From: Hypomesus transpacificus | Taxonomy: Eukaryota; Chordata; Actinopteri; Osmeriformes; Osmeridae | NCBI RefSeq assembly: GCF_021917145.1 | Contig: NC_061076.1 | Location: forward strand, 394,501 to 458,500 | Reading direction: 5' to 3' | Length of the DNA stretch: 64,000 nucleotides | In this document: positions 1 through 26,532 of the stretch, one piece after another | Layout of the letters: every line of letters starts with the position of its first letter | Position numbering within the stretch: the first letter of the stretch is position 1 | Notes under the pieces: model-generated | The model's input: only the letters and a program-made list of their open reading frames with translations | Database searches by the model: none | What the model was told of the DNA's origin: nothing | Translations under genes and position numbers: made by a program

Positions 1-92
1 TCATATGGGAAGGGTCCTGCTTTATCAATGAGTCATATGGGAAGTGAGTCATATGGGAAGTGAGTCATATGGGAAGGGTCCTGCTTTATCTT
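1..92. repeat. short tandem repeat at left edge
   Basis: The motif gagtcatatgggaag recurs four times, with the longer form that adds gtcctgctttatc at both ends. It is incomplete at the window edge and no function is visible. Confidence 0.7.
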
Positions 93-1074: not shown

Positions 1075-1182
1075 GACGGCCTCCTTGCTCTGTCCGAGAT
1101 CATAGACAAGATGGACTTTATTAAGACCAGCTGCATGACGGACTATGGAGGCTTGGTGGTGGATGGGCATGATGAACTGTGA
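1075..1182 (+). CDS. rcn3: reticulocalbin family (CREC) protein, terminal exon only
   Basis: A pyrimidine-rich acceptor (ctctcctctcag) precedes an open exon of 35 codons plus stop. It reads DGLLALSEIIDK at its start and ends in VVDGHDEL. DG-x-L-x-x-x-E is the second half of an EF-hand loop, and the final HDEL is the ER-lumen retention signal of reticulocalbins. The spacing F..S..T.YG..HDEL matches the RCN1/RCN3 tail. Reticulocalbins are calcium-binding proteins of the early secretory pathway. The choice of rcn3 over rcn1 rests on position: in human, RCN3 and NOSIP are convergent neighbours, exactly as here. The rest of the gene lies left of the window. An alternative acceptor at 1029-1030 keeps the same frame with 14 more codons, but would place the poor sequence FPPNAGLSS before the loop. 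Confidence 0.68.
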   Translation, partial: DGLLALSEIIDKMDFIKTSCMTDYGGLVVDGHDEL

Positions 1183-1423
1183 CCTTTCATTAGGTGACCC
1201 TACCACATCTGACCTTCTTACACCAAATGCCAAAATGATGCGTACTTCCTGTAGTGAGGTTCCAGCCTGACTTGACTACAGCCGGATCGACTGGGTGAGA
1301 CGAGCTTACATCCATTTACTAACGTCACCTCGAAACAGAGAATGATCAAGTAAGTCAAGGTTAAACATAAGAGTTTAGTTAATGTTAAAGTTAGCAGTAA
1401 CTTCTCAGGCCCTAAGCATTTGC

Positions 1424-1429
1424 AATAAA
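1424..1429 (+). terminator. polyadenylation signal, reticulocalbin gene
   Basis: AATAAA lies 242 bases downstream of the HDEL stop codon, on the same strand. It is the first canonical hexamer after the stop. Confidence 0.5.
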
Positions 1430-1475
1430 ATGATCAGAAAACAAAAACAGGATACTTGTCTATGACTCAATCAAC

Positions 1476-1481
1476 TTTATT
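1476..1481 (-). terminator. polyadenylation signal, nosip
   Basis: AATAAA on the minus strand lies 221 bases past the nosip stop. It sits only 47 bases beyond the plus-strand signal of the convergent gene, so the two 3' ends may overlap. Confidence 0.5.
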
Positions 1482-1701
1482 TTTCATCAAATTGAGGACA
1501 GACACCATGTTGCCAAAACAGAGTGATGTTACACTATGTGGATGTGTGTGTGTGTGTGTAAATGAAATAGCTACAGTTATAAACCAACAAATGAGAAATG
1601 ACCCAACAGTTGGCTTTACCCAATCAATATCTACAAGACTCCACCCTCCTCCATCCCACTTCCTCCTCCAACTCTCCCTGCACCACCTATCTCCATGCCT
1701 T

Positions 1702-4700: not shown

Positions 4701-5622
4701 CTAAGAAGGGTACAGGTCACACAAAGATGCACAACAAACTTGACTGATTTGAGAAGATTTCATTGGTTCACTTATTGCTTGGACTGAGAGCAGTAAGCCA
4801 ATTTCATCCAATTCAGTTTATCCACAACAGATGCAAAATGTCAATACCTTATCCTGTCACTTGCAACCAATGTAAAGCTAGAGCACATACACCACTGAGA
4901 TCAAGAATTCCTTCAATGAGTCAAACTTGCCTTCATTTTCTTTGCAATATCTGTCTTCTGGTGAAGCATGTACTCCAGGATGGCCTGCTTCTCATACAAG
5001 TATCCATCTAGACTAAAGATGAAAAAGTGGAATCTTGTGGGCATTCACAAACAAGGTCACAGTGATGAATGTATATTATGACAATACATCTTCAGTCCTC
5101 GGGTACAACTCGCGGTTCACGATGTGTGATGTTGTATCCATAAGCCTTGACATACGTTACAACAGGGTCCCTGCACGGCTGTAGAGAAAGGCAACAGCAG
5201 TCAAAGTCCTTAATTGCATCCTTGCCCAAACGCACACTTTGTGTCCCATAACCAGATGCCGCTGAAAAGAAAAGAGGGGTGGTATTTAAAGTCTTTCCAA
5301 TTAATTTCTTGAGGACAGGGATATAAGCTTCAGGATAGAAACTAAATGGGCGCAATTGTTGTGATGGTCAGGCTTCATTAATACCCAGTGGATAAAGAAG
5401 TTAGAGCTAGGCTAACTTTGTGCTTCCTACAGTAGCTGTTGGTTTACACTAGTAGCCTGATGTTCGTTTCAGTACTACGACTAGGCAAAAGTGCTACAAA
5501 AATAATCTTACAAGGGCTAAAAAACCAACACGAGCAGTACATATTTACTCACCCGTGTCTTTTCTCTTCTCGTGGTAAGTGTATACGGCCCCCGCTGTAC
5601 AATTTTTCCCATGTCGCGTCAT
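1702..5622 (-). CDS. nosip: nitric oxide synthase-interacting protein (E3 ubiquitin ligase)
   Basis: Nine coding exons join in frame to 322 residues (human 301): 5553-5622, 5156-5261, 4931-5012, 4469-4604, 3545-3750, 2876-2992, 2607-2677, 1909-2017, 1702-1773. The start MTRHGKNCTAGAVYTYHEK is the family N-terminus. A Cys-rich half RING/U-box follows (DFDCCCLSLQPCRDPVV), then a charged helical stretch, a Ser/Glu low-complexity linker, the LPSFWIP motif, and a C-terminal U-box-like half (CPMSGRP, CAVTKDTLG, SGAVV..ECVEKLIRKD), ending GGTGFAGSGV. NOSIP binds nitric oxide synthases and acts as a ubiquitin ligase in nucleus and cytoplasm; this is family knowledge. Intron 3 starts with GC, not GT. 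The linker in exon 5 (PGSSSSSSSAPGS) is expanded relative to my memory of mammals. Intron 4 holds a MITE and intron 7 a G-rich minisatellite. Confidence 0.95.
2039..2184. repeat. G-rich minisatellite, 29-30 bases x 5, in nosip intron 7
   Basis: Five near-identical units of gtaggaggccag followed by long G runs. The plus strand has four or more G-runs per two units, so quadruplex formation is plausible; the nosip transcript carries the C-rich strand. The array ends about 20 bases from the acceptor of exon 8 (exon starts 2017). Confidence 0.92.
3785..4365. mobile_element. PIF/Harbinger-like MITE in nosip intron 4
   Basis: A 20-base terminal inverted repeat opens with AGGCCGATTTATACTTCTGC at 3785. 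It closes with its complement ending at 4365, with one mismatch (GGCC against GACC). The 581-base element is flanked by the 3-base direct repeat TTA (3782-3784 and 4366-4368), the target duplication expected of PIF/Harbinger transposases. It contains no transposase frame, so it is non-autonomous. Confidence 0.8.
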
Positions 5623-6010
5623 TTTTAGGAAAGTTCTGTAGCTAGCTAATCAGTTCCTTGTTTCGATAGCCTACTAGTAGCTCTAGTAACTAGCCGGAAA
5701 GCACAACACTACGCTTACTACCCACTCAGTCAGCTAGCTAGCCAACAAGGGTATTTGATTTGCGTCGAGTAAACAGACTACGCGTCAAGTTAAAGACCCC
5801 AAAACCTTATTAGCAATTCGAATTTAAATGTAACGTTAATATTTGAGTGTGGCTAGCATTAGAGCTAGGTAGGCTAATACGATAAAATAAGTACACTACG
5901 CGTATTTACACCGGAACCCACTTCGTGTGCTTGCTATGGATTTCAAAATAAAAGATGAACTACATGATTTAAATTAACGCCTACATGTATGGCACGCCGA
6001 GTTAGTCAAA

Positions 6011-6060
6011 ATTAAATAAATAAATAAATAGGTAAATAAATAGATAAATACATACATACA
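6011..6060. repeat. (AAAT)n-type simple repeat
   Basis: Runs of aaat, then agat and atac tetramers, form a degenerate microsatellite upstream of nosip. Confidence 0.8.
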
Positions 6061-6969
6061 TAAGCCTATGAAATAAACTCTGAAACAAAACAAAGATGGC
6101 AATAAATATATAAAGATAGCATTATATAAGTATAAAACTGAATCCATTTACCGACATCAATAAATAAATAAATGTATTTAATTCAAAATGACGTTTTTGT
6201 AAAGACAACATTTATTCATTTCATGGGACTTTTATTTCCTAATGCCAAATGTATTTATCTTTTGACAGTTTTACACACCAAATATATTTCTGTGCTGTAT
6301 TTATTTCCGATCTTACATGCAAACGAGAGGGGCGTGGTTATCTTCAGACCAACGCAGCTCCACACAAGATAGAAGGCAGATAGGACACCTAGATTCGGTA
6401 GATTATGGAAGACATTAGTCATGTCAGAGATCGCATGCTGGCCTAATAGATCAAATTGATCAGCATGGCTTGTCAGGATGTATTATTTTGGCACACATTG
6501 TAGATTTTGTAGAGGTACTTGGGCAGATAAGTGCTGTAAGGTTTTGTATAGGCGGAGCCAAAACCCGACCGATCTACGTCACAGTGACCTATCTATGTCA
6601 GATCTCAGACGGCTGTTACTCCGTTGGTACGATGCAAAGACAAAGTAATTAATACATAAACACTCAGAGACTGCATGTAAGTCTGTTCTGATATCTGCAA
6701 TTGATTTAGCTGTTGCTGTTGTTGCTAAATTCAATAAATTCGATGGGGCGGAGATTCAGCTCCTTCAGGCGACACGCCTGGTCCTAAAATTGCCCCCGCA
6801 GAGAAGACCGATGATTTTCTCACAATTTCAAAGCCAAATTGAACATACTTGTCTGTGAGTTTTAGACCTCCATTCATTCTGCACTCGACCGTTAGCGCCC
6901 TCATATGGAACTTGAGTAGAACTGCAACCAGCTCAGAACCCGGAAGTTTCTCGAGAGTGGCAGTTCCCC

Positions 6970-7005
6970 CCATAGATATATATAAACTGCCTTTTATATC
7001 TATGG
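6970..7005. repeat. short hairpin, 11-base perfect arms
   Basis: CCATAGATATA at 6970 is the exact reverse complement of TATATCTATGG ending at 7005, with a 14-base loop. It could be the end of a small DNA element, but no second copy exists in the window. Confidence 0.5.
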
Positions 7006-7920
7006 TTCTCTCTTCTCTTTAGACATTCTCTGACATAGGTGCGTTCTTCTTTCGCTTTTAATTGTAGATTGCAACCTGATTGCAACCAACGTTAATGAGG
7101 TGCGTTACCGCCACCTACTGTTCAGGAGTGTGAGCCGGCTCCGCTCCTAAACTGCTACGGTGAGGAATCACTCTTCGGGTATCTGTGATTTGTTTTTACA
7201 GTCTATGTCTGTGATCATGAAACACGTGACTACTACAGTTACTTTATAACTTGATTACAGTGTTGTCAGTGATTGCTAAAAATATGTAAATGACATTTTA
7301 CAGAAATCACTCAATGGATTTAAAACAAAGTACAAACTGTTGAATGCCGATGAAGGCATCAGTGTTCAGTTATTCTAGTTACTGTCCACATTAAAGGAAC
7401 CTCAAAGTACCTCAGTCTATGGTTATGACTTAACAAGCTTAATCTAAACATGTTTACCTTTAAATACAATGTTAATGTTGCTAGACTCGGGACTGGTTAA
7501 CCTTGAGGTCCCATAGATGAATTCAGCCTTCAAACTATGACATTTTGATGTGGGTGTGTTTTTATTTCTGAGGGACAGCACAGTTTGAATGGCTACCAAC
7601 ACAATGTTCTTTGGTCAGCATTTTTATTACATTGGCATGGTATTACATTTTTATTCAATTTTGTTACATTTCAATTGTTGCACACTACCAGTCCAAGCTA
7701 ACAAGTAGAGGTCAAGTACGCCCCACCACTCACAACAGTCGCTCAGCTACTTAGGGTTAGTCTAAGATGATTGTCTAGGATCATAGTAATTGGCATACAC
7801 CATGTACAGGGTTATAGGTTGCATAAAGAAATAATGGGCATTACACCTTTCAACATTACGGGCAGAGCCGGGATACTGTTAACGTGTGCAACATGGTGGC
7901 TGGGCTATACGGCTCATCCT

Positions 7921-8036
7921 GCTGAATGAGGCTGAGCCTGCTGTATGAGGCTGAGCCTGCTGTATGAGGCTGAGCCTGCTGTATGAGGCTGAGCCTGCCG
8001 TATGAAGCTGAGCCTGCTGTATGAGGCTGAGCCTGC
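7921..8036. repeat. 19-base minisatellite x 6
   Basis: The unit gctgtatgaggctgagcct is repeated about six times with few substitutions, in the jpt2/nosip intergenic region. Confidence 0.9.
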
Positions 8037-8925
8037 TCTGTTGGCCTGTCATGCTATCTTCCAGAGTTCACTTGTGTGCCACAGTTTTAATTTAAAACAT
8101 AAATTAAAGGCCTCCCCAAACTGATTTACCATTCTTAGAGCAAACAGTGTCTGAACCAAACCAGAAACACGATACATTCAGTATTTGCCCCAGTGGACAA
8201 GATCAAAATTGAAGGAAAATAAACTTTGGGTCAAGGCAATTGGCTGACGTAGCTCTTTGTGTATTAGATTTTTTTTGTTGGCTTTTTTTCCCTGAACAAA
8301 GTTTTATAAATGTATAGTATATGATAACATAAGCTTAAGCAAAAACATAAGCAAGACAGAAATGCAAAAGAAATATGGTTAATTGGCAAAACGTAAGCAA
8401 ACTGATGACATTACCCATTTGCATTAGTGGTTAGAACAACAAGCAAGATGAACAGACAGTAAAAGGTCTATAGAATGTAGAACAGTAAACGGAACTGAGT
8501 TTGGTGGATGAACATTGAGGGTGCCTGAAACACAGTAGACCTATTTTACTCACCAGCCTTTCATCACAATCCATTACCAAGTCAAAGATGAACATTTACA
8601 GTGAGTAATTACATGATTACACACGTCACCTCAACACAGTAACAGGACAGTAGTGATTGCAAGCGTTTCATCCAGAAAACAACAACACAAAGAGGTCCTC
8701 AGGAACGGTCTTAAAGTGCAGAAGAATGCAGACCAGGGATGTGATATGAAATGTGACAAATAAATCAAACATGAATCATTGAGATGTGACTATTTCCTTT
8801 ATAAGGGAATAGAGGATCATTTTTAACAACAAATCATCCCTGGAGGACAGTGAGAAAGGGTGGAATGAGGGAGGATAAAACAAACAAAAAGAATGTGTAC
8901 AGAAAGAAGAGAGATGGGAAGTTGG

Positions 8926-11925
8926 TCAATAGAAGACCACGCTGGACTTTCCTCCAGGGGGGTTGAGGACCTTGTTGTGGGAGCGAGGCCGAGCCCCCAG
9001 ACGGGGCTCGTGGTCCTTCTCCAGGAGCCTGGAGGGAGCGGAGGGCTCTGCCTCAGACTGGAGCTGTTCCACCTTTACAGGTGGAGGACAAATCACTGGT
9101 ATTTGAGTTTCCTTTGGCTGAGAAGCTGAAAGGGACATGGAGAGTTGAGTAAGGTGAGAGGTGCAGCACCCCAGTTTTGAGAGGTTTCCCTACATAATAA
9201 CCAACTCCTCTGGAAATAACCATCCCCTCGCTATAGAATAACCAACTGTCTCAGTGAGACTTTCCTATGGTACATTTTTATAAAGGAACTTTTGAAAAGT
9301 CTTCTTCTGGTTTTCCCTTTCATGACGTGTCTGGGCACTGTTACAGACCGATTGTGTCTAAGATGAGAGTGCCAATTTAAAACATTTGAAAATAAACTTA
9401 TAGGTTTCATTTGTTTTAACAATATTTGGCACCCTTTTTTGTAATACACAGTGACACATTATACATAATGGGGAGTCCAGACGGCATTATAAAAGTGTTA
9501 TATTATCTACAGGTTATATACATATTGCATTATTAAACCTGTTTGTCTTTTAAACAAGGTTTGGATTTGAGGGTTTTAGGTCCTAAAGCTTAGAGCTAGT
9601 CCAGTCATTCTGTAGCAGAGCATGTCAACATACTTGTAATACTACTTACAGTGCGTAAGAGCCCAGGAAGGGTTTGTATTATACAAGACATAGTGCAACA
9701 ACAGAATCACAACAGGTGCTAACTGTAAGCATCGTCCACTTGGTTCAATTGGAGGGATTTTTATGGGGGCCTAAAAAAGGTAAAGAACCTTCATTTTGGG
9801 TTTGAGTAAACAGGCTGTGTAGGCAAATAACTCACTTGGAGGCTCTTGTTCAGGAGTGGCACTTGAAGACATGTTTATGTTATCCTGGAAATGACAGAAT
9901 ATATCACCCACCCACCAACAAAGAAGACAACCATTCCATATTCACACAATGGATTCAAAGCACTTAGTGAAAACAGTCCTGTAACAGACGATGTAACATA
10001 GTATTTTTCTAATTGTTTCCACATTAATCAATACTCACAGAAGTGAATAATGTAAAATAATATTTTCTTTAATAGGGATCTCTATAATTTAGAAATATGT
10101 TTGTGTTTTGCTGCTGTTCTATCAATGACTTTGTTCTCACTGTCTCCGTTGCCTACTTGGACCACAAGTGACAGGTGTCAGTACTTCAAACTCTGGGTTA
10201 CTAGGTGTTTGGTTTGATGGCTTCCAAATATTGCTGCAATAACTTGCCTTTGGTTTATTAGGGTGGCTCCGGGTAGTGGCAGGGGGCACGGAGCGCTCTG
10301 CTTCCCCAAAGATGCTGCTGGTCGGCCCACCTGGAGGAGCCGGTCTGTGCTGCTGTGAGGGAGCCTTGGGTTCGTCAAATATCCCACTGCTCCTCCCCCC
10401 TATATGAGAACAAAAGAGATCAACTACCCGTCACCAATGACAGCTTGTGTAAAATATGAACAATAACGGCTCAAATACGAATGTTTATTAAATCACAAGA
10501 TAAATCTATCAAGTAAATGTTAGACACCAAAGATACTAAATCATGGTCTTTTAAAATCCCACAATTTTACCCAGAACTTGTGTCAAAGCTTCATCACCAA
10601 ATGGTCTATGCCAAACCTGACTTTTCTTTGTGGTTGTAACTTTACTCATGGGCCTTTTCTGACCATTTCTCTGCATTTGCTGCCTACACAAGTTCTGCGC
10701 TGGTGAGTGTTTTCCCTACTGGATAGACAGTTGGAGTAGGAGGTGAATAATGCAATTTCTTATTTTTCAAACATAATGATGTGACAGATTTTTGGCTGGA
10801 TCTTTGAAGTATATCTGAACTTGCCCGTGCTTCATGCACCTCTGACCTGGGGGGTTAGATCGCCTGGGGGATCCACTGGAATCCTCTACTGGCTCAAAAA
10901 TAGTGGAGGCCATTTTATGAGGCCTCCTGGAGGCAGACGCGTCTTCTTCATAACCACCAAACAAGTTACTGGAGCCACCTCCAGGAGGACGCAGCACTCT
11001 GTTACATACACACAAAGAAACAGTCTAATATACAAGTCCACATCAGCAAAAATGTGGACAAAAAAGAACGGAAATGTATGAAACAATAAATATATTGATT
11101 ATCTGCAGGCCTATAAGTGACATAGGACGTTATGCAATTAGCCCACCAACCCCTGAATATTATTGTTGTTGTTGTTAGATCTTCAAAACATTCAGTATGC
11201 TATATTGAGGTTCATAAGATTAGGCAAAAAAAATAACTCGTTTAAGTAGTTACATAATAGTTGGTTGGTCAATTTCACAAACAGTTAGCCACCTTAACAG
11301 ATAGTAGGCTAGGTAATATTACCGATGTGAAGTGGCAGTCTTCTTGCTGGTTAACCGCTAGCAAGCTTGCTAAGATGCAGTTAATTAGCTACCTAGATAA
11401 TTAGCAAAACCTAACCGAATAACGTTCGATTTGGAACAAGGACATTAAACAAATGTCAGAGTCAAGTAGGTTTCAGCCAGCCAATGACTAACAACCTCGC
11501 TTCAGTAGCTAGAGCGAGTTTAGATAGTCAAAATAGTGCACACTAACATCGCAACATTGTTAGCCTAGCTTGATGGAACAGCTAAGCTAACAAGTAACAA
11601 AGCAACAATATATTTGGAATGTATTTAGCCTAAATGGCAGCACATATGAAAAAATTTACAATCGTTCACGGTATTTGTTATGTTAGAATAATAAAAATGC
11701 ATGGCTAATAAACAAGACCGCTAGCGTTCACTTTGCATTCTACCGCGTTAGCATGCGGACAAAAAAAGAACATGATGTTGAATAAGCACATCCTAGCTCA
11801 CAACCAGTTAATTTTGTTTATACCTTTCTGATGTTAGTAAAGATTAGTTCAATGTTTTGGCTCATGTCTTACCTTGAACTTGGCTTCGCGCCATCAAGCC
11901 CTTGAAACATGTTTGTAGAAGTCAT
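8926..11925 (-). CDS. jpt2: Jupiter microtubule-associated homolog 2 (HN1-like)
   Basis: Five coding exons join in frame to 201 residues (human JPT2 190): 11873-11925, 10847-10998, 10248-10399, 9836-9884, 8926-9125. Start context is caATGACTTC, giving [12 protein letters not shown]. The family's repeated PPGG signature is present: [18 protein letters not shown], then SNPPGG..SSGIFD, then [11 protein letters not shown]. The highly conserved tail is [21 protein letters not shown] then KSSVVFY, the JPT2 ending. JPT2 is a small, largely disordered cytoplasmic/nuclear protein reported to bind NAADP and link it to calcium release; this is family knowledge. Intron 3 begins GC (AAAG then GCAAGT), and the next exon resumes DNIN where human has KPK followed by DH. 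The neighbour cramp1 is also the neighbour in human 16p13.3. Confidence 0.95.
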
Positions 11926-13855
11926 TGTGAATAGCTATCCTGTGTGCTTTATTAATTTGGCAGTAAGGACAGTGGCGTCACATTTGGTGAAAAGTTTGAA
12001 ACTGAAAGAGTAGGTGGAGCTGAAGTAAGACTTCGATCATGTTCCAAGTTGCTGACGTTGCAATAAAGCTACTTGCGATACGTAAGCTCGTAAACTCGCT
12101 ACAGCGTCATACGCTGACAAGAACAGAGGAAGTTGATGTTACATTCGAAACAAGACCCACATGGCTCAAAGCGTTTTATTTTTTTCAAAATGTTTTTTCA
12201 AACAAAGACTTTGGGAATGTAATAATACAAATAATCTGTCTTTCTGTGTGGTTTTGGGGGAGTTTAGGGAAACGAGTGTCCAACGATTGGCTTATCTCGG
12301 GAAACCGGGCTCTGTACAAAGTGGTACATTTGCAAGTGTACATTTCCGACCTCAGTGATCAAGTATAAGCAACATTTCTGATGAAAGGTCCCTCACAGAT
12401 GACGCGCATGTCCTCGTTTCCCTTGATCTGACCAATCATAAGTTTTGTTTTTGCGTTGGAAGTGGGCGTGGCGTACTCAAACAGGACTGTTGCTGCAGCT
12501 GAAGCGTTTGACTGTGGTTAGCTTCCTAGCTAGTTGGACATGCTAATGTTTTTAATGTGGGCTAGCTACTATTCCGTTTTAAGACTGCAACGTTTTTCCA
12601 TGATTTGACCTTTCAAGTAAAGGTAATAAGACGTACTAATGTATTCTCACTTAATTTTCTGTTATTATTTATTCATGTGAAAACGAACAAGTTTAGGATT
12701 GCTCCTGCCTGCTAGCTACAAGGTTACTTGGTCCCCGGCGAATTTAGGAAGGTACAATGCTAGCTAGTTAGGCAGTTTCAATTAGGTAGTTTTTGGTTAC
12801 TTACGCTTTTAAGGGATGAACCGGAACACCAGGGTACTGATTATCAGCATTAATATAATTGTATGCAAGCAAGATTAAAACCATGTATTTGCAAACATGA
12901 TATCGAACTTTATGGCTTACTTTTCCGTATTTTCTCAATGTAATAAGTAGGTTAACGATGTAGTAGCGTATCCAGCGACAGTATCCTTATAATGTACATT
13001 CAGTAAAATAACAACTCAAGCAGTGAGAGAGATCATCGACATGGTATCCAATCAGAGCATTTTAAAGAGAAATGTAAGTATTAGGCAACCATAATTTCTC
13101 TTCAAACCTATTTGTGTTGCAAATGTATGAACCAAAGCTTTGAAAACATGCATGAATTTATTCATTCATGGCTTGGTTACCCTCTAGCTTTGAGTTGGAA
13201 AATGTGAATGACGTGCCTAATTTGAGTGGCCTACTAGCATTATGTTTTTCCATAGGGGTTGGGGAATTTCAGAATCACATTTGCCTAATTTAGGTGATTT
13301 AAAGCGAGTTTCTGCCTGCTCAGTAGTTGCATCAGTTACCTAAAATGTGTTGGTAATTTTCATGGATTGGTTATCCTCTAGCTTTGTGTTTGAAAATGTG
13401 AAAGACGTGCCCTATTTTTGTGCAACACATTTTCCCAGAGGAAAGGTATATTTTTGAATCGCATCAACCCAATTGAGGTGATATAAAGCGATTGTCTGCC
13501 TGCTATAATTTTTCGAAAATGAGTTGGTCATGTAAAAATGTAAACATGCTCTTTTAGTAGACGATGACGTAGTGATAAACTCCAAGAGAAGTAAAGCATT
13601 CTCTTTACTTTGCAGATGAATCTGGTCACTTTTAATAACGTTTTTATATATCAGTCTTAATTAACGACAATTGCTGTTTTTAATGGACCATTGGTCGTAA
13701 TGTAATGAATATGATTTCAGAATACAGACAACATAATCAACTGCGCAGAGTTTGGCCAGCTCAGACGGAGCAGGAGTGTAGTCGTAGCAAGGATCCGTTC
13801 GTGCATTTAATATGCGTAATTCGATCAATTATTGCTTGTTAAACTCGTCGGATCC
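11926..13855. promoter_or_regulatory. divergent jpt2/cramp1 intergenic region
   Basis: About 1.9 kb separates the jpt2 start codon from the most upstream possible cramp1 start codon, so the two promoters lie here. A CCAAT-type motif (gaccaatca) is near 12430. I see no TATA box in a convincing position. It may contain non-coding first exons of cramp1. The frames at 12039-12368 overlap in two registers and look random. Confidence 0.5.
13166..13504 (+). repeat. diverged direct duplication, about 150 bases x 2
   Basis: 13166-13320 and 13360-13504 share blocks in the same order: catgg.ttggtta, cctctagcttt, gaaaatgtgaa, gacgtgcc, then aggtgat and taaagcga and a shared tctgcctgct end. About 40 unrelated bases separate the copies. 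The duplication is old and lies just upstream of cramp1 exon 1. Confidence 0.7.
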
Positions 13856-16800
13856 ATGGTGAAGAGAAGGAAAACATCAGCTGCCACCGAAGACCATGAA
13901 AATGGGTAACATTGTCTCAATAAAGAAACAGTTAAATTAGAGGTCGAATGCGCCGAAAGATTTGTCGTTGTCGTTGCTGTAGGGCGCTTAACTGAGGGCG
14001 CTTGCATTTGAATTTCACTGACAATACTAGAATGTATACTGGAAATATAAGTTGAAGTAACAAAGACAGTTGGTCCATTTTCTGTTGTGAAAATGTATTC
14101 TATGGAATTAAAATGTAGACATTTAGCATTAAAGACAAATTGCATGTTTAGTTGGGACGATGAGAGCGGATTTGAAACAAACAGTGGCGGCCATGTTGAG
14201 AGACAGGGAACGTCGTCTTTCTAAGTTGTTTTTGTACTGTGTTTTTGTTAAAACTCAAACAGTTGCTTCTCTTGTATTTTGTCAGGATGACAGTGGGCTC
14301 GAGGGACGGCATCGGTGTCCATGGAGTGAATAATTCGTTCAGAAAGCATGAAGGTTGTGACGAAGAGGAGAGCGGTGATCAGGGGAGCGAGGAGCGTAGT
14401 ACAAAGAGAGACGGAATGGAAATACTTGATCCATCAACTACGGGCAGCACCAGTTTAGCACTGGTGCTTCCGACCCCTGTACCAAACCAGTCAGGATCTG
14501 GTTTAACCCAACGTCCCCAGACATCGTCAGTACCATTTCTTCAAAACCACGATCAACATCATTTTCTGAGATCCAGTGTTCGACCTCCGAGCAAACGGAT
14601 CCGTAAAGATTCCATCGCCACAACTATCAATGGTCACGGCCATTCGAAATTGAAAGGTAAGTCTCTACCGCAGTACCGTTTGCTTCGCAAACGAATTGTG
14701 GATTGTTCGTAGAGGTGCAGGGACTACATATGTCACTAGAGAGCACACGCAGTTTTTTGTGCTGGGCCTTCGGGTCTATTAACCCCAGACCCACAAACTG
14801 GGGTGCCCACGGCTCTGATGACAGAACTGACTCGTCAAATTGGTGCTAACACTACATTGAACTGTAGCTTGAATTCGGTCTCAATTGTCAGTCAGACTTG
14901 GTAAGACATGGTCATGTCCATTTTGATCAGAGTGCTAGAACTATGGCTTTAAGACCAAGATCAGGGATGACATCAAATCAAACTTTATTTACACAGTGCA
15001 TTTCATATCAGGATGCAACACAATGCTCTTCACACAGAGGGAAAGGGGGGACTGCAAACACACGTTCCTTTGTCTTGTTTTCCATAAGTTAGCTCTGCTA
15101 CAACACCTTTGTTGCAAACAAAAGTCTCATCACTTTCTTGCAGGAATGCAAATACAAGTTGTCCTGACATATTTCACAACAGACATCTTCATATGGTTAA
15201 ACTGACATCTTCACATGGTTAAACTCTATGCAAGTCTGCCTCTACATGCTGGCCAATGCATTTGTAACATTGCTATGACATGCTACTCACCATTGGTCAA
15301 ATGTGGAATTTAACGTAATAAATGAATTGAGTTTTAATTAAGAAAGCCAGCTAGCCTTCAGTTCTAAATGATGTGAAGGTTCTCCTGTTGGCAGAAATTC
15401 TCCTCTACTATATCACTACCTGTCTGTCACACTTCAATCTTCCGAACTCAATTCACCATTTTTTTTGCGCAGTATTCATGCAATGTCAAATTCATACACA
15501 TTCACATACAAACAGAATGTTTTCTCACTTGTCGTCACTGTTTGAAACAGGGTCTGAGAATGGGCCCTCTGCTCAGGTGGCTAGCGGGCAGCCTGGCCCA
15601 GTGTCCGGGCCAGGGGGGGCCAAGGCAGCCTCCAGGAGCCAGGGCCCTAGCGACAAGGAGGAGCTGGGGGGCATTCAGAAGAGGGCTCGTCGGCAGTGGG
15701 AGTCCTGGAGCGCAGACGATAAAAACAGCTTCTTTGAGGGTCTCTATGAGGTAGAAGTCTTCTTCAGTTGTAGGTCACATTCAGTCTTATGAACAGCATT
15801 GTTGTTATGTAGGAAAAACACTCAAAAGTAGTTGATTTTATCAGTAGATGTTAGTTTACTAGACACGTATAACACAAACATGGCTTTAAGAGTAAACACT
15901 TGTCATTCAAGGGTTAGAAAAGGGCTTCAAATGTCAGAATTGATTTCTGCCCCTAAAGCAAACAATCCTCTCCTCCTTTAGCATGGGAAGGATTTTGAAG
16001 CCATCCAGACCAACATAGCGCTGAAGTATAGGAAGAAGGGAAAGCCAGCCAGCATGGTTAAGAACAAGGAGCAGGTCCGCCATTTCTACTACCGCACCTG
16101 GCACAAGATCTCCAAGCACATCGACTTCGCCAACGGTGAGTTTTACACAAGGAAAGAGCCATATCAAAAAGTCTCATTTTTTAGAAATGTTCCCCTGATC
16201 TCCCAGAGCAGCCTAGCTGAACAACAGTGTTTGCTGCCATTCCAGTCAGGCCGTGTGGTAACCTGTTCCTCCTCCTCAGTGTACTCCCGCGTGCTCAAGA
16301 GGTCCTCTCAGGAGCTGTACGGGCTCATCTGCTATGCTGAGCTCAGGAAGAAGGTTGGAGGATGTGAGTGAAGTACAATGACAGTTTGTGTTTCAGTGCA
16401 TGCACTGGGGGTCCTGACAGCTTCTCAGTTTTGGATATCAGCTGTTTCAGTGCTTGTTGAGCATGCAAAAGCTATTCATGCAGGGTTTCCCGCAGCACTT
16501 TTCAGTTAAGGCAGCCGCCTAAGCAACACACGCCTGCCGCCTTAACTACATCGTCCAAATAAAAATAAAAACTTTCGTTGTCGTCGTCATCTGTCGCTTA
16601 TCCGGGGGTCGGGTCGCGGGGGCAGCGACCTAAGCAGGGAGACCTAGACTTCCCTCTCCCCGGCCACTTCCACCAGCTCTTCCTGGGGGACCCCGAGGCG
16701 TTCCCAGGCCAGCCGAGAGACATAGTCCCTCCAGCGTGTACTGGGTTTTCCCCGGGGCCTCTTCCCTGTAGGACGTGCCCAGAACACCTCACCAGGGAGG

Positions 16801-19800
16801 CGTCCAGGAGGCATCCTGGTCAGATGCCCGAGCCACCTCAGCTGGCTCCTCTCTCAGCGATATCTGCCGTTGTCCTGTTTTCTCCCTTCCATTCCAAACC
16901 GTGACCAACGCCAGTCTCCCTTCTCTGCAGAACGCATTAGTCTATCGCACAAACTAGCCCCCCCACCCCCGGTCTGACAGCAAACCCCACACTTCCACTT
17001 TAACTTAAACATTTTCTGCGGGAAACCCTGTCATGTACTGCTTTGCTCAACTTAACTCACTTCTTTATCTTCTGTTGAGCATGATCCAGTGAGACCTGTG
17101 CAATTTAATGTCTTATTGTTCTTTTGACATGAGAACCATTCCACCCTCCAGTTCTGCAGCTGCCATAACGCGTGGCAGTGTGTCTGTGTGCATGTCTCAG
17201 TTTGTCAAAGCATTGGTGTCATCCCTTCTGTGATTTTGAAAAGAAATACTGGCTACAATGTAGCTTTGTTTGTGCACCTGCTAGTGCTTGTCACAAGGGA
17301 GGTGATTAAGTGTTAAGTACGTTGGAGTCATGGGGGAAATCGGAGAATGATTGTGCATGTCTGTTGTTGGAATCTTGTTATTAATAGCAGCTGTTTGTTT
17401 CCCATTCATGGCAGTAATGGACGACAAGAATGTAGCAAAGCTGAATGAACTCATCCAACAGGGGTAAGAGACGACACAGAGTACCTTGCATTTGGAACCA
17501 ATTGGATGATGATAAAACAAGATGTAAAATAATAATGAATTTTGTAAATCTTTAATGCGGTGTTTGTGTACATGCATGCATCTAATGTCTACCAAGTCAG
17601 TTGTAGTCATGGTCTGCTGTGTCCGTTCAGGGCCACTACGGTGCGTTCCAAAGGCAGGAACCTGAGGATCAAAGCGCCCATGTGTCGAGCCATCAAGAGA
17701 CTCTGCGACCCAGACGGTGAGCACAGAGGACTGCTTCCACATTCTGGAGCACTGTCATAATAATATCCCATTTCTATGTTTGTTAGGTGTCCATTTTAGT
17801 GTATGAATTCCTCAATTCCATCTGTGTTTTATACATGTCAAGTGTTTCTGAACAGTGGTGAGTAATGACTGGCGCTGTGTGGTTTCCTGTCCTCCAGGTG
17901 TGAGTGATGAGGAGGACCAGAAGCCCGTGCGACTGCCCTTAAAGGTGGCGCTGGAGCTGCAGCCACGAACCAACCATTCCTGGGCTCGTGTCCAGAGCCT
18001 GGCCCACAACCCCCGCCTCAGGTCTGACCCCGCCCACAACCCCCGCCTCAGGTCTGACCCCGCCCACAACCCCTGCCTCAGGTCTGGCCCTCACAGCACT
18101 CTGAGGCCAGACGGCACTCTGAGGCCAGACGGCACTCTGAGGCCAGACGGCACTCTGAGGCCAGACGGCACTCTGAGGCCAGGCGGCACTCTGCAGCTGG
18201 ACCTATCCAGATGGTTTTCTCAAACTGGACAGAAAAAGACCTGTGCTGCCTTGCCTGCACAGGAAAAATAACTAATATAGAACTCAGTTAATACTACTGT
18301 TGACCTAAGAACAATTCAATGTATAGACATCATATTCCTTATGTATTCCCACCTTCTCTTGATTTGACCAACGCACACGCTAACTTGAACATGTTGCTAG
18401 GTTACCTGTCTCAGGTGCCCTACACTCTCTGCCTGCAGGCCTACCTGAGGAGTCAGCCATATAACAATGACCGTTAAGATATTGGCTGCTGTTGGAAACA
18501 TGTATTTCCAAGTCAGTCATCCCCTTTAAAGGCCCTTGTTTGGGTCCCAACTTGTTAGCTAGGCTGCCTCCATGTGGACCATTGTGTTTGAGGGTCATGT
18601 TGTCTTGCTGTTCCTCCCCTGGACCTCACCTCATGTTGCCAGGGTTTGATATTCACACATCCCTCCGTGTGAACTCCCCACCCTTCTTACTGCTGTACGC
18701 ATGGTTAAGCAGGTCATGGCAAGTGTTGTTTCTTCTCATAACGTAGGATGGTGGTTGAGCTTCACAGGAAGGTCTCCAGCCTCATCGAGTTCCTGAAACA
18801 GAAGTGGGCGGTCCAGGACCAACGCATCGTATCCTTGAGACAGAAACTTCTGACTAAGGTTACACATTCTACAGGAGTTGAATAGGGCTTCAGGAATACA
18901 ACGTGTGCAAAGTTTCAACCTTAATTTCTGATGACTGGTCTATTTTCGGTACAAAATGAAAAGATTTGTATCAAACTTCTCTATTGAGGTAAAAGGAAGG
19001 GCACTTTATGTATGCATTTACGTGGTGGTAGTTCCATGAACATGACTGTGTCTGTATTGGTTCAAAAGACTTGCTGCATGTATCTGACTAGTGTTCTCAA
19101 GCTTTTGGATCGGATACCCTACCCCACAGTCATCAAACTTTGGTGTATATAAACATAGTATCCATGATTCATGTTCAGATCTAACACATAGTGGTGCTGC
19201 AAAGGTAATCTGCCCATGTCTATCAATATACAAACTGTACATTCTGTTCTTCATTCTGATGGGCTCTCTCCTTTGGTTTTTGAAACCAACCAAAGCCATT
19301 TTCCCTGATGGTTTCTAAATCACTGTCCTTAACCCAACTGCCCAGCTGAAGAGTTTGCAGGAGAGTGAAGCCCTTGGCTCCCAGCAGGCCCTCCCCGCTC
19401 CGTGTAAGCCTGAGATGGAGGAGCTGTTCCTCTACCCGGCACAGACCAGCCCCCTGGCCACCCTGCCGGGCGTGGCACGTGTCGTGCACTCCAAAGCTTC
19501 CTGCACCGTGCACTGGCAGGAGAGCGGCAGGTGTCGCCCTGGTGCCAAGGAGCTGCCGGGGGTGCAGATCCTGGGGATCCATGGTGCGGCGGTCCTCAGG
19601 GGGCCTGCCAGGACGGCCAGGGGAGCTGCTGCAGTGGCCCCAGCCCCCCAGCCAGCAGACGTACCACCCGCTCCGGGGCCGGAGGAGAAGAGCACAGGAC
19701 CCCCGCCTGCTCCACCTCCCACAACACAGAGACCGCTTGCTAGAAGACATGAGGCCGGCGGGGGGAGTGGGGACCGGGGGAGGGGCTTCTCAGAGGGCAG

Positions 19801-22800
19801 GGAAGGGTGCGGGGAGCCAGTCGCCAAGGAGGGTGAGAGGGATTTGAACATGCAGGGGAGCTCAGCGGACAAATGCGGAGAGGAGTGCCTGGCAGGGGTC
19901 AGCACGACCTCTCCAGGGATCAGCACAACCTCCCCAGGGGTCAGCACGACCTCTCCAGGGGTCAGCACGACCTCCCCAGGGGTCAGCACGACCTCTCCAG
20001 GGGTCAGCACGACCTCTCCAGGGGTCAGCACGACCTCCCCAGGGGTCAGCACGACCTCTCCAGGGGTCAGCACGACCTCTCCAGAGTCACACCTTGCTTC
20101 AGAGGAGCCGGTGCTGGAGCCAGGAAGCACAGTGCACCCTGGGAAGGAGGAGTCTGGGGAGGCCCCCTCAGCCCCTGGGGGGAGGTCAGCACAGCAGACC
20201 CCTGGGGGGGGGAGGTCAGCACAGCAGATCCGGGAGGAGGGCTGGAGTGCCGGTGGCTCTGTGACGCTAGCGGAGCTGTACCTCATGTTGGGCAAGCCAG
20301 GGAAACTGCAGCTGGAGTACGAGTGGCAGCCGGCCGTGCCCAGCGCGGGGCAGGACACGGGTCAGCCCTCGAGCCTGCACCCTGCCCCCCCGGCCAGCAC
20401 ACACCGCGTCCTGCACTGCCTGCTCAGGCTGGTAGCCTCCCAGATCAACCCCAAGCCAGTAAGTTTCTTTTAGTTGGACAGGAACAATAAGGAACACCGA
20501 AAAATATAGGACCTTTTTAAAAATGAAACGTGTCCATAGATGTGCATGCATGGTCTTTTGGTTTACATTCCTTACCGTGCTCACATTTGGCTCCGGTCAC
20601 TCTTGGAAGCTTTGGTTTCTCTGTATTAAAACATAACTTCTACATGAGAGAGTTACACAATACTTTAATATTACATTTGATCCCAGGTACTTCTTCAGTA
20701 CATTGCTTATACTTTTCATTTTACACTTACAAAAATGTGTAATTAGTTGATTGAAACATCTAGCTGATTATTTTCTCATTCACTTGGGCTCAGAGGATTT
20801 CAACTAGCACACTTAATACTTAAACATTTGTAAATAGTTTGGTGTTCATTTTATTGACCTCAACACTTTTTCAAAAGTGAAAACCAGCAAATCGTTTCTA
20901 CAGTTGGTCAACACAGTTAAACGGCTTTACTGTCTGCTCCGACCAGTTCTCTTTACTGTGGTGATAACGTGATCTCTCCTAGGCTCCAGAGCTGTGCTCC
21001 ACCGCCACATCCCCCCTCAAGCCCCCCCAGGAGGAACAGCCCCCCGCCCCCCCAGGGAGGAGCCCTGCGGGGGGGGGCCGCAGCCCCAACTGCAGCCGCC
21101 AGCAGGCTTCCTTGCGGGGGGCAAAGGTGTTCCTGCCCAGTGCTGGAACATCAGGTACGACACACACAAACATGTTGGTTAAGTGATATGATAAAGGGCT
21201 ACATCAATGTCCAGACGTTGTTGTTGGGTGAGGATTTAACAGAGAACTAATATAAGACATTTTGATCAACATAACATAAGCATTTGATCAATGTAGGAAA
21301 CAGCAGACAATTGTAGGCTACATGAAGGATGTACATGCATGAATGTACCCGTTTTCCCCTTTTGAGTTCATGTGAAATAAACACCTTTTTTCACTTTGAA
21401 GCCTGAAGTTTTCAAAAAGACTGTAACACAGTTCTTTATTTAACACAAGAGTACACTACCTTTTTGATATTGGGTAAAATCATAGGACTCATAGGAATCA
21501 TAGGTAAGCAACACAAGCCTCCAAAAGTTCCCTCCTGGGCTGCTTCCTGTCCTGCCCTGTGATCTCTCCTTGGGCTGCTTCCTGTCCTGCCCTGTGATCT
21601 CTCCCTGGGCTGCTTCCTGTCCTGCCCTGTGATCTCTCCCTGGGCTGCTTCCTGTCCTGCCCTGTGATCTCTCCTTGGGCTGCTTCCTGTCCTGCCCTGT
21701 GAACTCTCCCCTTGTCCCTGCAGGTGTGCGGAACCTGCCCAGGTCTCTGCTGGTGTCGGGCGGTGATGCTGAAGGGGGAGTCTTTGCTGTGCCGACCACG
21801 CTGCCCCCCAACAGCTCCCGCCACTCTCGCATGTTCTCCCCAAACAAGGAGGCAGAGCTGGCCTTCCGGCAGCAGCTAGACTCCATCAGCGTAAGGCCTT
21901 TTATAAATGTACAGTACCACTTGAAGCTCTATTTGGAATTCATCAATTAACGTTTCTTCTATATGCAATTTTGTATTATGGATGCAGTCAGACATTTTCC
22001 TGTCAAAGCAGAGGAAGTTCCGGAGCCGACAGCTTCGGAAGCCCCTCGTTGTGCAGGTAACTAACGCTTCACTTGATGGCCCTTTAGACATGTAGTGTTA
22101 ACATGAACTTAGCTAGTCTCTGTCTGTCTCCTGCTGCCCAGCGGACTCTGCTGCCACGCACCACAGGAGACGCCCCTCAGCATGTGTGCTCCTTCTCCAT
22201 CCTCTCCAACTCAGCTGCCACAGGTACTCCCACACCCCACCTCCTCCCACACCCCACCTCCTCCCACACCCCACCTCCTCCCACACCCCACCTCCCACAC
22301 CCCACCTCCTCCCACACCCCACCTCCTCCCACACCCCACCTCCCACACCCCACACCCCACACCCCACCTCCTCCCACACCCCACCTCCTCCCACACCCCA
22401 CCTCCTCCCACACCCCACCACCTCCCACACCCCACCTCCCACACCCCACCTCCCACACCCCACCTCCCACACCCCACCTCCCACACCCCACCTCCCACAC
22501 CCCACCTCCCACACCCCACCACCTCCCACACCCCTCCTCCCACACCCCACCTCCTCCCACACCCCACCTCCTCCCACACCCCACCTCCCACACCCCTCCT
22601 CCCACACCCCTCCTCCCACACCCCACCTCCCACACCCCACCACCTCCCACACCCCACCTCCCACACCCCACACCCCTGGCTGCCATATATGTCATAATTA
22701 GGTCTTTACGTTTGAACTCAATCTTATCTACTATCTACCCCTACAACACTGACTGGACACTCCAATATATGAAAACAAATACATTTCATAAGTTGAAGAT

Positions 22801-25800
22801 CTCACCAGCACATCTGTCACAGTATTTTACCTCCCTTGTTCCTTTCTCCTCCCTCAGGAACTGGCTCCTTCCGGCCGATCCAAACCCGGCTGCCCACGTG
22901 CTCCCGCCCCCCCCTCACCAAGTCTTCGATTATGTCTGGTCCTGTGACTTCCTCGAAGCTTTCCAGTAAGTTTCTCTATTTATGAAAATAAGAATATTAA
23001 TTAATGAAATTGGTGGTTTAATGATTTAATAAAATTTCTTATTTTGGGGTTTTGTGTGAAATACATTTGTCAGATAAGAAAAACTAAAATTAATGTTATT
23101 TTCTTGAATGTGCATGCACGTTATACATTAATAACAGAAGCAAATCCACTATCAAAATGAAAAGTACAGATTTTTACTGTTCAGTTGTAAAGATTGCAAG
23201 TACATTATGTACATACTAAAACATGGCTTAACTTTTTCAGGTGCAATAGGTCTGGCTGCCAAGTCAGCAGGCATCATCCCAGGCAGTCCCTGCAGAGAGC
23301 TGGAGGCTGGGGGGCCCTGCAGAGAGCTGGAGGCTGGGGGGCCCTGCAGAGAGCTGGAGGCTGGGGGCCCCTGCAGAGAGCTGGGGGCTGGGGGCCCCTG
23401 CAGAGAGCTGGGGGCTGGGGGCCCCTGCAGAGAGCTGGGGGCTGGGGGCCCCTGCAGCCTCCTGGACCCAGAGCCAGCAGCTCATGCTGGGCCACAAACA
23501 CAGTTTCTACAGGAGGGCGGAACTGGGGTGAGTTCTGAGAGAGACACAACTATTTCTATTTGAGTGTTTCTTTAACAGAATGATTTACATGTAGTTACGT
23601 GTAGTTGGCTTCTAAAGGTCCATCTTGGCCTCCATAGAACATGTGCATGTTTTACCAGTCAAGCACCAGGTCCCCTGGGAGTCACCTTCCTCCCCACATC
23701 ACTGAGCAGCTAAACACGGCTTCCCATCATGCATCTCTCCAGACCGGCCCGTCTCCTGGAGGTCAGTGCGGAGGAGACTCTCTCCTCTCCCCGCCCAGTG
23801 TTGCCTCTCTCCTGGACATCTCCCTCCCAGGCCCCCCTGAAGAGGCCCTGGCCCCCGGAGAGACCCAGACACACATCAGTGACTCCATCATCGAGCTGGC
23901 CATCAACTCAGCCCACTATGGTGACTGACATTCCAACCCTAGTGTTCTCCTACAGGAAGTGTTCCACTGTGTTGTCCCTGTGTATGTATCTGACACCTCC
24001 TCATACCTGGTGTCTCTCCCAGGTGACGAGGCCTCGCTCTGCCCAGCCAAGCTGAACGGCAGTGAGGGCTCCAAGCTGCTGCCCTCCTCCCCCTCTGTCA
24101 GTCCCTCCAGGGGCTGGAGTCCTTCACCCTGCCATGACCCCCAGTGGTACCCCAACGACTCAACAGATTCCTCTCTGGGCTGCCTCCTGTGTGAGTTATA
24201 TGCACGCGCACACAGAAAACATTAATTTCATTTGATTTAACACTAGAGCGCCATCAACAACTCTGCCTCTTGTGTTAGTAAAGATACTGAATATTACTGA
24301 CAACTGTCATGTATAGGGATGCAACAATTATAGATTTTGATGGTCCAATTAAAGTCTGAGGAATAATCACGGTTTAACGATTATCGATTAATTATTGCAT
24401 TAATTGATTTAACAGTTTTAGGGATGTGTAAAATCACAAGAAAATTCTTAAATTAGAGGATTTATTGTACAACATTTCTTTGATGGCTTTTGTTAACAGT
24501 TGCTGCCTTTCAAAACTGAAATCCTACTTACCAAATAATTCAGTACCAAATAAATAAAACATAGTGGTAACCGTATATTAATGAATGAAACTACTTTTCT
24601 AGGTACGCATCTAAGGAGTAAGTCTTAACTGAGATGAGTAGCCTAAAATAATAAGCTGTATTAAAGGTGAAATAAAAAAATAAAAGCTAGGCTACTTATT
24701 GTTACAGTGTGTCGTGTTTGTGCCTGCAACAAAACTTAAGGTTGTGTTAAAAACAACACACAATAATATTATTTACAATAAACCAAAATATAAACGACCG
24801 TTCGAGCAAGAGAATCCTCCTGAAGAACTAGGCATTTTCAGTTCTAATTCACAATTGATATGCACGCGTCACTTCCTCATATTGCGTAAACCAGGTTCAC
24901 AACTTCCGGTAGCTAGCAGTTACGTTAGTTCTCTTGCACAAAATGGATTTTTTTTTTTTTACGAGGCGTTCGGGTGATTATCCCAAAATGACAATTAACA
25001 ATGTACAAAGAATTCTATGTTGCTACCCTTCAAGAAAGAGGGAAAAGGGGTTCAGTTTGTACATTTCCAGCTACATCGACTATTACGAAGGTAAGGTTTG
25101 TTTAACAGTAAAAACGCTGAAAAAAGCGAGTGCAATAGTAGCTTAGAGTGCAATAGCTAAGGGTTACCATAACCTGTTCTGTTTATTAAAAGTCACAGCA
25201 GAGGGGGGTCAGATGGCTGAGCGGTTAGGGAGTCGGGCTATTAATCAGAAGGTTGTTGGTTCAATTCCTTGCCGTGCCAAATGACATTGTGTCCTTGGGC
25301 AAGGCGCTTCACCCTACTTGCCTCTGGGAGAATTTCCCTATACTTACTGTAAGTCGCTCTGGATAAGAGTGTCTGCTAAATGAATAATTTAACTAACTAA
25401 CAAACAACAAGAAATGTACGTTATGCTGATGGAAAGTAGGTAGGCCTACACTAACACATGCAATGATAAATCACATACCATCAGCTCAAGATAGCAACAG
25501 GAGAAAACTTCATGATTTTGCGCAGGCGCGCTGAAGGGGAAACAGGGAAACGGTTTGCAAACTCCGGCAGTGTTTGTTGAATAATCCTCACAGTGCAGCG
25601 GTTGTTCATAGAACACTGATGAACCATGATGTCCCTTTATTGAGTGACAACAGAAACACTGGGTGTAGCTGAGCCTTTATGTGAGGGCTAACCCTTACGT
25701 TACAAAACCGAGACGTTTTCAATCTCGGTTAATAGTAAAATTGGTTAATTGCTGCATCCCTAGCCATGTATAGTAACACTGTCTCACACACACTCCCATT

Positions 25801-26532
25801 TGTTGACCTGTGAGATGCCTGCAGCGAGCCTGGTGTCTCCTGATAAGGGCAGGCGGACGCTGGCACGCTCCGGGCCCTCCAGCGGTACAGCTCTCCTGGG
25901 CCCCAGCCTTCTGGACTGCAACTCCCATGATTCCTTCCAGTCCCGCGGGCTGCCAGACGTTGCAGAGGTGAGAGGCCCTAACCCTGTCTTAACCCCCCTC
26001 CAGAAGGTTCTGACATGACAAAATTGGCAGCTGTGGTGATATGTTAGACCCCCCCCCATTTAAAATGACTCAAAGAACAGCACATTGTTCTTCATATCCA
26101 GGCACGAGATCCTAACTTGAAGGAGAAGTCTTACTCCACTCCCCATTCTGTTTGAGGGAAACATATGAATGCAAATGGATAGTTGTTAGTTTCCTAAGCT
26201 CAATTTTCGATTAGTCGGTAACACCCCATGTCTTGTCTAAGTCCTGCCACACAGAAGTGCATCATGTTGTTCAGTCTGTCAAAACGTTTGGGCAAGTATA
26301 TCTACGCAAAGTGTTCTCTGGTCATGTCAAACAGCCTAGAAGGCACCAGGGTCAGGGGTTGTAAAAGAGTAACAGTATGTGGTGTCCCTCCTGTCTGTGG
26401 CTGCTCCTGCAGGTGGACACACAGCTGGCCTGTATGATGAGCGAGAGCAGCGTGGATTACATCGCTCGATTCAACGACCTGGCGCAGGAACTGTCTGTCA
26501 CAGAGTCGCCCCTTCCACCTCCGGGGGTTTGA
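13856..26532 (+). CDS. cramp1: protein cramped-like (CRAMP1)
   Basis: Twenty exons join in frame to 1,296 residues (human about 1,269): 13856-13905, 14286-14656, 15551-15750, 15982-16135, 16280-16363, 17415-17463, 17631-17716, 17898-18021, 18747-18828, 19346-20458, 20983-21154, 21724-21890, 21988-22056, 22142-22223, 22858-22965, 23241-23527, 23659-23920, 24023-24190, 25825-25967, 26413-26532. Landmarks are QHHFLRSSVRP, a SANT-like domain (RRQWESWSADDKNSFFEGLY to HFYYRTWHKI), NLRIKAPMCR, LPGVARVVHSKA, LLDISLPGPPEEAL with THISDSIIE, DPQWYP and the C-terminal SVDYIARFNDLAQEL. CRAMP1 is a nuclear chromatin factor; fly cramped behaves as a Polycomb-group gene and regulates histone H1 genes. The start is uncertain: 14287 (MTVG) matches the human N-terminus, but MVKRRKTSA at 13856 is open and in frame. 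Exon 17 might instead start at 23638. Exons 10 and 16 contain coding minisatellites. Confidence 0.93.
16481..17030. mobile_element. TIR element with nested GC-rich repeat, cramp1 intron 5
   Basis: CAGGGTTTCCCGCAG at 16481 and its perfect complement ending at 17030 form 15-base terminal inverted repeats. Both ends are flanked by TCATG (16476-16480 and 17031-17035). The CAGGG..CCCTG ends look hAT-like, although hAT normally makes 8-base duplications. From about 16590 to 16860 the interior switches to a GC-rich block (cgcttatccgggggtcgg onward) of a kind I recall as dispersed in fish genomes, probably an inserted LINE fragment. Confidence 0.65.
18005..18094 (+). repeat. 30-base minisatellite x 3 duplicating the cramp1 exon 8 splice donor
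   Basis: Three 30-base units, each containing CGCCTCAGGTCTG or a near variant, place GT donors at 18022, 18052 and 18082. Use of the first gives the conserved junction NPRLR followed by MVVELHRK. Use of the second or third adds 10 or 20 codons (RSDPAHNPRL type) without a stop or frame change. Confidence 0.9.
18097..18186. repeat. 18-base minisatellite x 5, cramp1 intron 8
   Basis: Five units of cactctgaggccagacgg, the last with one change, follow the donor-copying array almost directly. Confidence 0.93.
19898..20086 (+). repeat. coding minisatellite, 21 bases x 9, cramp1 exon 10
   Basis: Nine in-frame 21-base units encode the heptapeptide VSTTSPG (unit 2 has Ile; the last ends in Glu). Silent tct/tcc alternation shows that the units homogenise in blocks. 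The serine/threonine-proline motifs would be candidate phosphorylation sites. The region is a variable linker in the human protein. Confidence 0.95.
21537..21711 (+). repeat. 35-base minisatellite x 5 abutting cramp1 exon 12 acceptor
   Basis: Units begin gggctgcttcctgtcctgcc and recur every 35 bases exactly (21537, 21572, 21607, 21642, 21677). They are pyrimidine-rich, and the last one runs into the polypyrimidine tract and cag acceptor of exon 12 (exon starts 21724). Confidence 0.93.
22231..22677. repeat. C/A-rich satellite-like array, cramp1 intron 14
   Basis: About 450 bases of mixed 15- and 18-base units (cacaccccacctccc and the same with an extra tcc) start 8 bases after the exon 14 donor. 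The complementary strand is almost pure G/T/A with regular GGG runs. Because units are multiples of three, long open frames appear on both strands; they are artefacts. Confidence 0.95.
23288..23449 (+). repeat. coding minisatellite, 27 bases x 6, cramp1 exon 16
   Basis: Six in-frame units encode PCRELEAGG (three copies) and then PCRELGAGG (three copies). Each unit carries one cysteine, so the block adds six regularly spaced cysteines absent from the human protein as I remember it. Confidence 0.94.
24314..25762. mobile_element. hAT-like non-autonomous element, cramp1 intron 18
   Basis: TAGGGATGCAACAATTA at 24314 and the complement of TAGGGATGCAGCAATTA ending at 25762 form terminal inverted repeats with one mismatch. 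Flanks are gtcatgta and gccatgta, an 8-base target duplication with one substitution, as hAT transposases make. The 1,449-base body has no transposase frame and hosts a SINE. Confidence 0.75.
25203..25382 (+). mobile_element. tRNA-derived SINE
   Basis: A tRNA-like head has an A box (tggctgagcggttaggg) and a B box (ggttcaattcc). A body follows with tccttgggcaaggcgcttca, then the tail gtaagtcgctctggataaga with gtctgctaaatg, common to many teleost SINEs. It is inserted in the hAT-like element and is not a functional tRNA. Confidence 0.85.

Follow-up and report, generated by a model that had tools for sequence, protein, structure and literature searches.

A 30-nt minisatellite in the cramp1-like gene of Hypomesus transpacificus has copied the donor of coding exon 7 so that three 5' splice sites lie in register and in frame, and we read this array, with a probability of roughly 0.6, as repeat growth that was tolerated, with the first donor dominant and its copies giving rise to minor in-frame isoforms. 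It is probably such tolerated growth, rather than a purpose-built switch, that we see here, and arrays of the same kind recur at the ends of other exons of this genome. The array lies within a window of 64,000 nt, the whole stretch of DNA that was analysed (positions 394,501-458,500 of contig NC_061076.1 in assembly GCF_021917145.1). The assembly examined comprises 437 Mb in 376 contigs and provides the sequence of one individual.

The gene spans positions 14287-26532 (+) of the window in a model of 19 coding exons, in which all 18 introns have GT-AG borders and the 1289-aa product is free of internal stops. We take it to be cramp1-like (Cramped-like). A putative SANT/Myb domain upstream of exon 7 is weakly matched by Pfam Myb_DNA-bind_7 (E 3.1e-4, 20.9 bits, below the cut-off of 31), and the protein gave no matches against NCBIfam. 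A search of the assembly with exons 7 and 8 as the query returned a single locus and no paralogue usable as an outgroup. Coding exon 7 (17898..18021, +; phase 1 to 2) ends in NPRLR at donor 1, and coding exon 8 (MVVELHRK..., 18747..18858, +) contributes the acceptor that partners donors 1, 2 and 3. The first-pass annotation had numbered the donor-bearing exon as 8; it is coding exon 7 in the gene model, and the other number would require an additional non-coding exon upstream. The NPRLR-M junction is presumably conserved in cramp1 proteins, and no cramp1 relatives for comparison of this junction were found. At the start of exon 7 (CAG/GTGTGAGT, 17898-17906, with the slash marking the splice junction), donor-like sites at 17898 and 17900 outscore the real donor in a small matrix of 18 donors and resemble a recursive splice site arrangement.

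The minisatellite itself (18002..18090, +; 3.0 copies by TRF, score 164, 96% matches, 89 nt) has a unit composed of 20 nt of exon end and 10 nt of intron start. The best TRF score in 500 dinucleotide shuffles of 17600-18600 was 63, and the highest real score in this interval, 189, belongs to a neighbouring 18-nt array of 5.4 copies (18096..18193, +; TRF) that is intronic and adjoins the 30-nt array. As in the human ABCA7 array discussed below, the repeat copies contain the exon's own donor, here three times in register at 30 nt: donor 1 (CAG/GTCTGA, 18022..18023, +) at the original position according to the gene model, donor 2 (CAG/GTCTGA, 18052..18053, +) 30 nt further on, in frame and adding 10 aa, and donor 3 (CAG/GTCTGG, 18082..18083, +) at +60 nt, again in frame and adding 20 aa. 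An in-frame, threefold copying of the donor by a tandem repeat was what the first-pass annotation had proposed, and the TRF array and its GTs at 18022, 18052 and 18082 bear this out. Its further claim that each donor would give an intact protein, differing by 10 or 20 residues, holds for the reading frame as well, given that splicing from donors 1, 2 and 3 to 18747 leaves the frame of the gene model open, without a stop, for products of 1289, 1299 and 1309 aa.

Copies 1 and 2 are identical from 20 nt before the donor to 22 nt past it. The exact match of copy 3 is limited to positions -7 to +5 around its donor, with one base changing an Arg codon to Cys and another falling on donor position +6. 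The frame of exon 7 runs uninterrupted through the 18-nt array as far as 18268. Overlap of a donor by an array is not improbable in itself, because an 89-nt array placed at random in the gene, with wholly exonic positions excluded, would cover a donor in 16% of cases and any junction in 31%.

Other repeats lie nearby. The cramp1-like gene contains two in-frame coding minisatellites, one at 19893-20084 (21 nt x 9.1, GVSTTSP) and one at 23288-23457 (27 nt x 6.3), as well as two intronic arrays (21534-21710 and 22227-22671), one of which ends 13 nt before an acceptor and one of which starts 3 nt past a donor. A general tendency of arrays to hug splice sites within this gene was considered and rejected (P 0.31-0.67, depending on the threshold, when arrays may span exons); with arrays kept intronic, single-array proximity gave P values of 0.02, 0.06 and 0.28. 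Elsewhere in the window, an exon-like stretch at 1854-2183 (-), which we assume to be NOSIP-like, lies between a 22-nt repeat and a 29-nt array and has a Pfam U-box match at E 0.056.

Minisatellites, defined by a period of at least 9 and at least 2.5 copies, make up 14.8% of a 200-kb sample of the genome (89 arrays) compared with 7.1% of the window (24 arrays). This sample consists of twenty 10-kb stretches (bases 2,000,001-2,010,000 of contigs C1-C20), two of which are mostly repeat (63% of L017 and 98% of L019). A scan for arrays that have a repeated donor in their first unit, preceded by an open stretch resembling an exon, produced 28 array/strand candidates; 13 of them were submitted to Pfam, and the window's own was assessed by gene model and Pfam. 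At least 4 further donor-copying arrays with homology were found in the 200-kb sample, a minimum given that 14 of the 28 candidates were followed: an NCBP1 exon end with a 26-nt array of nine identical CAG/GTGGGT donors (L007:3165-3403; PDB E 2e-12), an MCT10-like exon with a 31-nt array of six donors (L012:7052-7249; E 8e-20), an AGAP2-like PH-domain exon with a 29-nt array of six donors (L016:8707-8883; E 1e-13), and a CUB-domain exon with a 29-nt array of three diverged donors in register (L010:7714-7798, -; Pfam E 5e-4, just below the cut-off). Every unit of these arrays joins an exon end to an intron start. The corresponding scan at acceptors listed 24 array/strand candidates, and none of the 9 peptides submitted to Pfam matched; one more was too short.

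A genome-wide search for three CAGGTRAG motifs at a spacing of 26-32 nt gave at least 928 matches, compared with at least 54 for the backward control, a 17-fold apparent enrichment in which the counts are lower bounds, refer to matches rather than arrays, and give heavy weight to long arrays. The matched motif CAGGTYAG, a poor donor, gave at least 1140 matches (at least 202 for its own backward control) and is about as common as CAGGTRAG in single copy (29 versus 24 loci in 264 kb). Since CAGGTYAG is equally common in tandem, tandem arrays show no preference for donors, which are not favoured seeds for them, and a special seeding of minisatellites at donors is not supported by these counts. 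Strict CAGGTAAGT triples produced at least 7 matches, fewer than the at least 22 of their backward control, and two arrays from this search (L027 and L031) were not located at exon ends.

The CAGGTRAG matches listed (contigs C1-C5) correspond to 18 arrays, and the stretch preceding each of them was examined. Among these listed matches, homology-supported exon ends precede 4 of the 18 arrays, namely those of a DNAH5-like gene (L136; 15-nt unit, E 2e-12), a LYPLAL1-like gene (L139; 30-nt unit, E 6e-15), a TTL-family gene (L145; 26-nt unit, Pfam 1.3e-9) and a RALGAPA2-like gene (L148; 27- and 29-nt units mixed, E 1e-19). Another two stand after stretches that look exon-like (L141 and, without a Pfam match, L143), and three lie beside an exon-like stretch on the opposite strand (L137, with Pfam dynein below the cut-off; and, judged by eye, L142 and L149). 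The sequence of L134 is wholly inside its array, and nothing clear was seen at the other 8.

How often donors are copied in this way was assessed independently at 100 exon ends taken from kinase-domain matches, some of them without a clear donor. None of the 100 carries a donor array of at least 2.5 copies, which bounds the rate at less than 3.6% of donors. At L033, L035 and L130, arrays start about 28, 3 and 7 nt past the presumed donor of a kinase exon, and at another kinase exon (L038, 66-101, reverse strand) a two-copy 18-nt duplication starts at the donor and does not include the exon end. Extrapolating from 4 arrays per 200 kb gives about 8,700 places genome-wide, an uncertain number with an interval of 2,400-22,000, and the result at the kinase exons argues for the low end of this interval or below. 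Under assumed donor densities, 0.6-1.65 donor-spanning units would be expected in 200 kb versus the 4 cases seen, and a mild excess over expectation is possible. In the first five cases the units are of similar length, between 26 and 31 nt (P=0.001, post hoc), a pattern on which the motif search, with its fixed spacing, offers no test. Neither this clustering nor the 4 cases against 0.6-1.65 is well explained by simple random seeding.

Nine donor-copying arrays have homology or model support (cramp1-like, NCBP1, MCT10-like, AGAP-like, CUB, DNAH5-like, LYPLAL1-like, TTL-like and RALGAPA2-like), and 4 of them have a unit length that is a multiple of three if the mixed 27/29-nt RALGAPA2-like array is counted (chance 1/3, P=0.35). 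In-frame units are therefore at chance level, so that the in-frame unit of cramp1 needs no selection, which suggests a one-in-three accident; more generally, a unit divisible by three is weak functional evidence in a genome this rich in minisatellites. At the other five arrays, splicing one copy further on would change the reading frame. This includes the next donors of the NCBP1, MCT10-like and AGAP-like arrays. In all three of these the fourth copy restores the frame, but in two it adds a stop; at NCBP1, the fourth and seventh copies are in frame without a stop. These arrays suggest that the first donor normally suffices where units are not divisible by three. Provided that genes like NCBP1 are required and present in no further intact copy, most splicing there must rely on the first donor, given the frameshift that the second would cause. 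In cramp1 every donor is in frame, so that coding requirements leave the choice of donor undecided.

For the cramp1-like gene, we infer that donor 1 dominates, that the copies are used to a minor extent, and that the array arose neutrally. Tandem duplication in a minisatellite-rich genome would have copied 30 nt that straddle the exon 7 donor, and the duplication could have been nearly neutral because the first donor would have stayed in place with the extra copies falling on its intron side, so that splicing at donor 1 would still give an unchanged protein. Donors 2 and 3 would act as weak, redundant sites in a minority of transcripts and yield in-frame forms with 10 or 20 additional residues; by analogy with human ABCA7, such low-level use of the copies is likely. 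A point against the dominance of donor 1 is that donors 1 and 2 score alike: in a leave-one-out matrix built from the gene's 18 donors, and therefore small, both reach -0.11, the fourth weakest value of the 18, and donor 3 reaches -1.97. In experiments with duplicated donors it is often the intron-proximal copy that is preferred, and splicing at donors 2 or 3 would then be expected. Better-scoring GTs exist nearby, for example at 18415, past the stop that closes the open frame of exon 7.

The first-pass annotation had instead seen a length-polymorphic isoform switch, in which all three donors would be substantially used, the number of units would vary between individuals, and the 10-aa insert would tune a linker beside a conserved block. 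We consider such a working switch unlikely. Its structural part stands, with three in-frame donors and no stop; donors 1 and 2 are moreover identical and weak, and the two other in-frame coding arrays of the gene fit a switch as well. The functional part is not supported. Among donor-copying arrays, in-frame units occur no more often than expected at random, and retention of a repeat unit in ABCA7 is about 2% and unaltered by VNTR length (PMC5954066).

Less probable still is a main donor at the intron-proximal end, with U1 at equal sites favouring the one nearest the acceptor and the exon effectively longer by 10 or 20 residues (an exon extension, or one-sided intron sliding). The outcome of the duplicated-donor experiments mentioned above speaks for this explanation, but donor 3 scores below donors 1 and 2, and where the unit length is no multiple of three, the last copy would mostly break the frame. 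Intron sliding in Drosophila also has shifts by in-frame multiples of three among its listed properties (PMC2891723), which would fit.

Control of donor choice by RNA pairing is very improbable: donors 1 and 2 would hide each other, donor 3 would pair with the 18-nt array, and copy numbers would set which donor is open. Folding does predict these pairings, with probabilities above 0.9 at most positions of donors 1-2 and at donor 3, but in 45, 115 and 22 of 200 trials, respectively, shuffled flanks close donors 1, 2 and 3 to at least the same degree; we therefore gave the predicted pairing no weight and rejected masking by hairpins. An assembly error at a true locus of one or two units is similarly improbable, for although tandem repeats are generally error-prone in assembly, this array is just 89 nt long and copy 3 carries its own differences.

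At the cramp1-like locus itself we see repeat growth, probably tolerated, with a possible minor in-frame isoform; its main interest lies in its belonging to a recurrent group. It is possible, if somewhat doubtful, that minisatellites spanning 5' splice sites are a recurrent class in this genome, with some introns offering 3 to 9 identical donors from which the spliceosome reliably takes the 5'-most. If true, this would amount to a donor rule based on order that a simple proximity rule does not predict. Splice-site choice among equal competitors has mostly been studied with artificial constructs, and the arrays of identical donors (nine at NCBP1, six each in the MCT10-like and AGAP-like genes) are natural tests of such a choice. 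It is the contrast between the proximal preference in experiments and the first-donor dominance proposed here that makes these natural arrays worth testing.

Several known systems share features with the cramp1-like array. Tandem alternative donors of the GYNGYN type (PMC1779574; PMC2423196) likewise involve neighbouring, competing 5' splice sites and small insertions, but these sites are separated by a few nt and do not stem from a minisatellite, whereas the donors here are spaced at 30 nt and their context is copied with them. Intron gain or sliding by tandem duplication (PMC2891723; Zhuo 2007 cited therein) also copies AG/GT motifs and shifts junctions in multiples of three; unlike in those cases, the original donor is kept here. 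Internal tandem repeats that change human gene structure (PMC2812944) resemble our array in altering exons and introns through units of about 30 bp, typically with about 4 repeats and minisatellites as the main agents, but belong to recent primate paralogues in segmental duplications, and the cramp1-like locus is single in the assembly. The closest parallel is the VNTR in intron 18 of human ABCA7 (PMC5954066), where the canonical exon 18 donor is formed by the first two bases of a 25-bp unit. There, the donor one unit further on is reported to be used with retention of one unit, frameshifting events amount to 14 and 2% of transcripts (we read the 2% as single-unit retention), and retention does not change with VNTR length. 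The ABCA7 unit starts at the GT and its 25 nt are out of frame, whereas the cramp1-like unit takes in the last 20 nt of the exon and keeps the frame; the VNTR is long and of proven polymorphism, whereas the cramp1-like array has three copies and is known from one assembly. In both genes, minisatellite copies include the donor of the preceding exon, and a donor-containing minisatellite is thus of an already known kind, the ABCA7 type.
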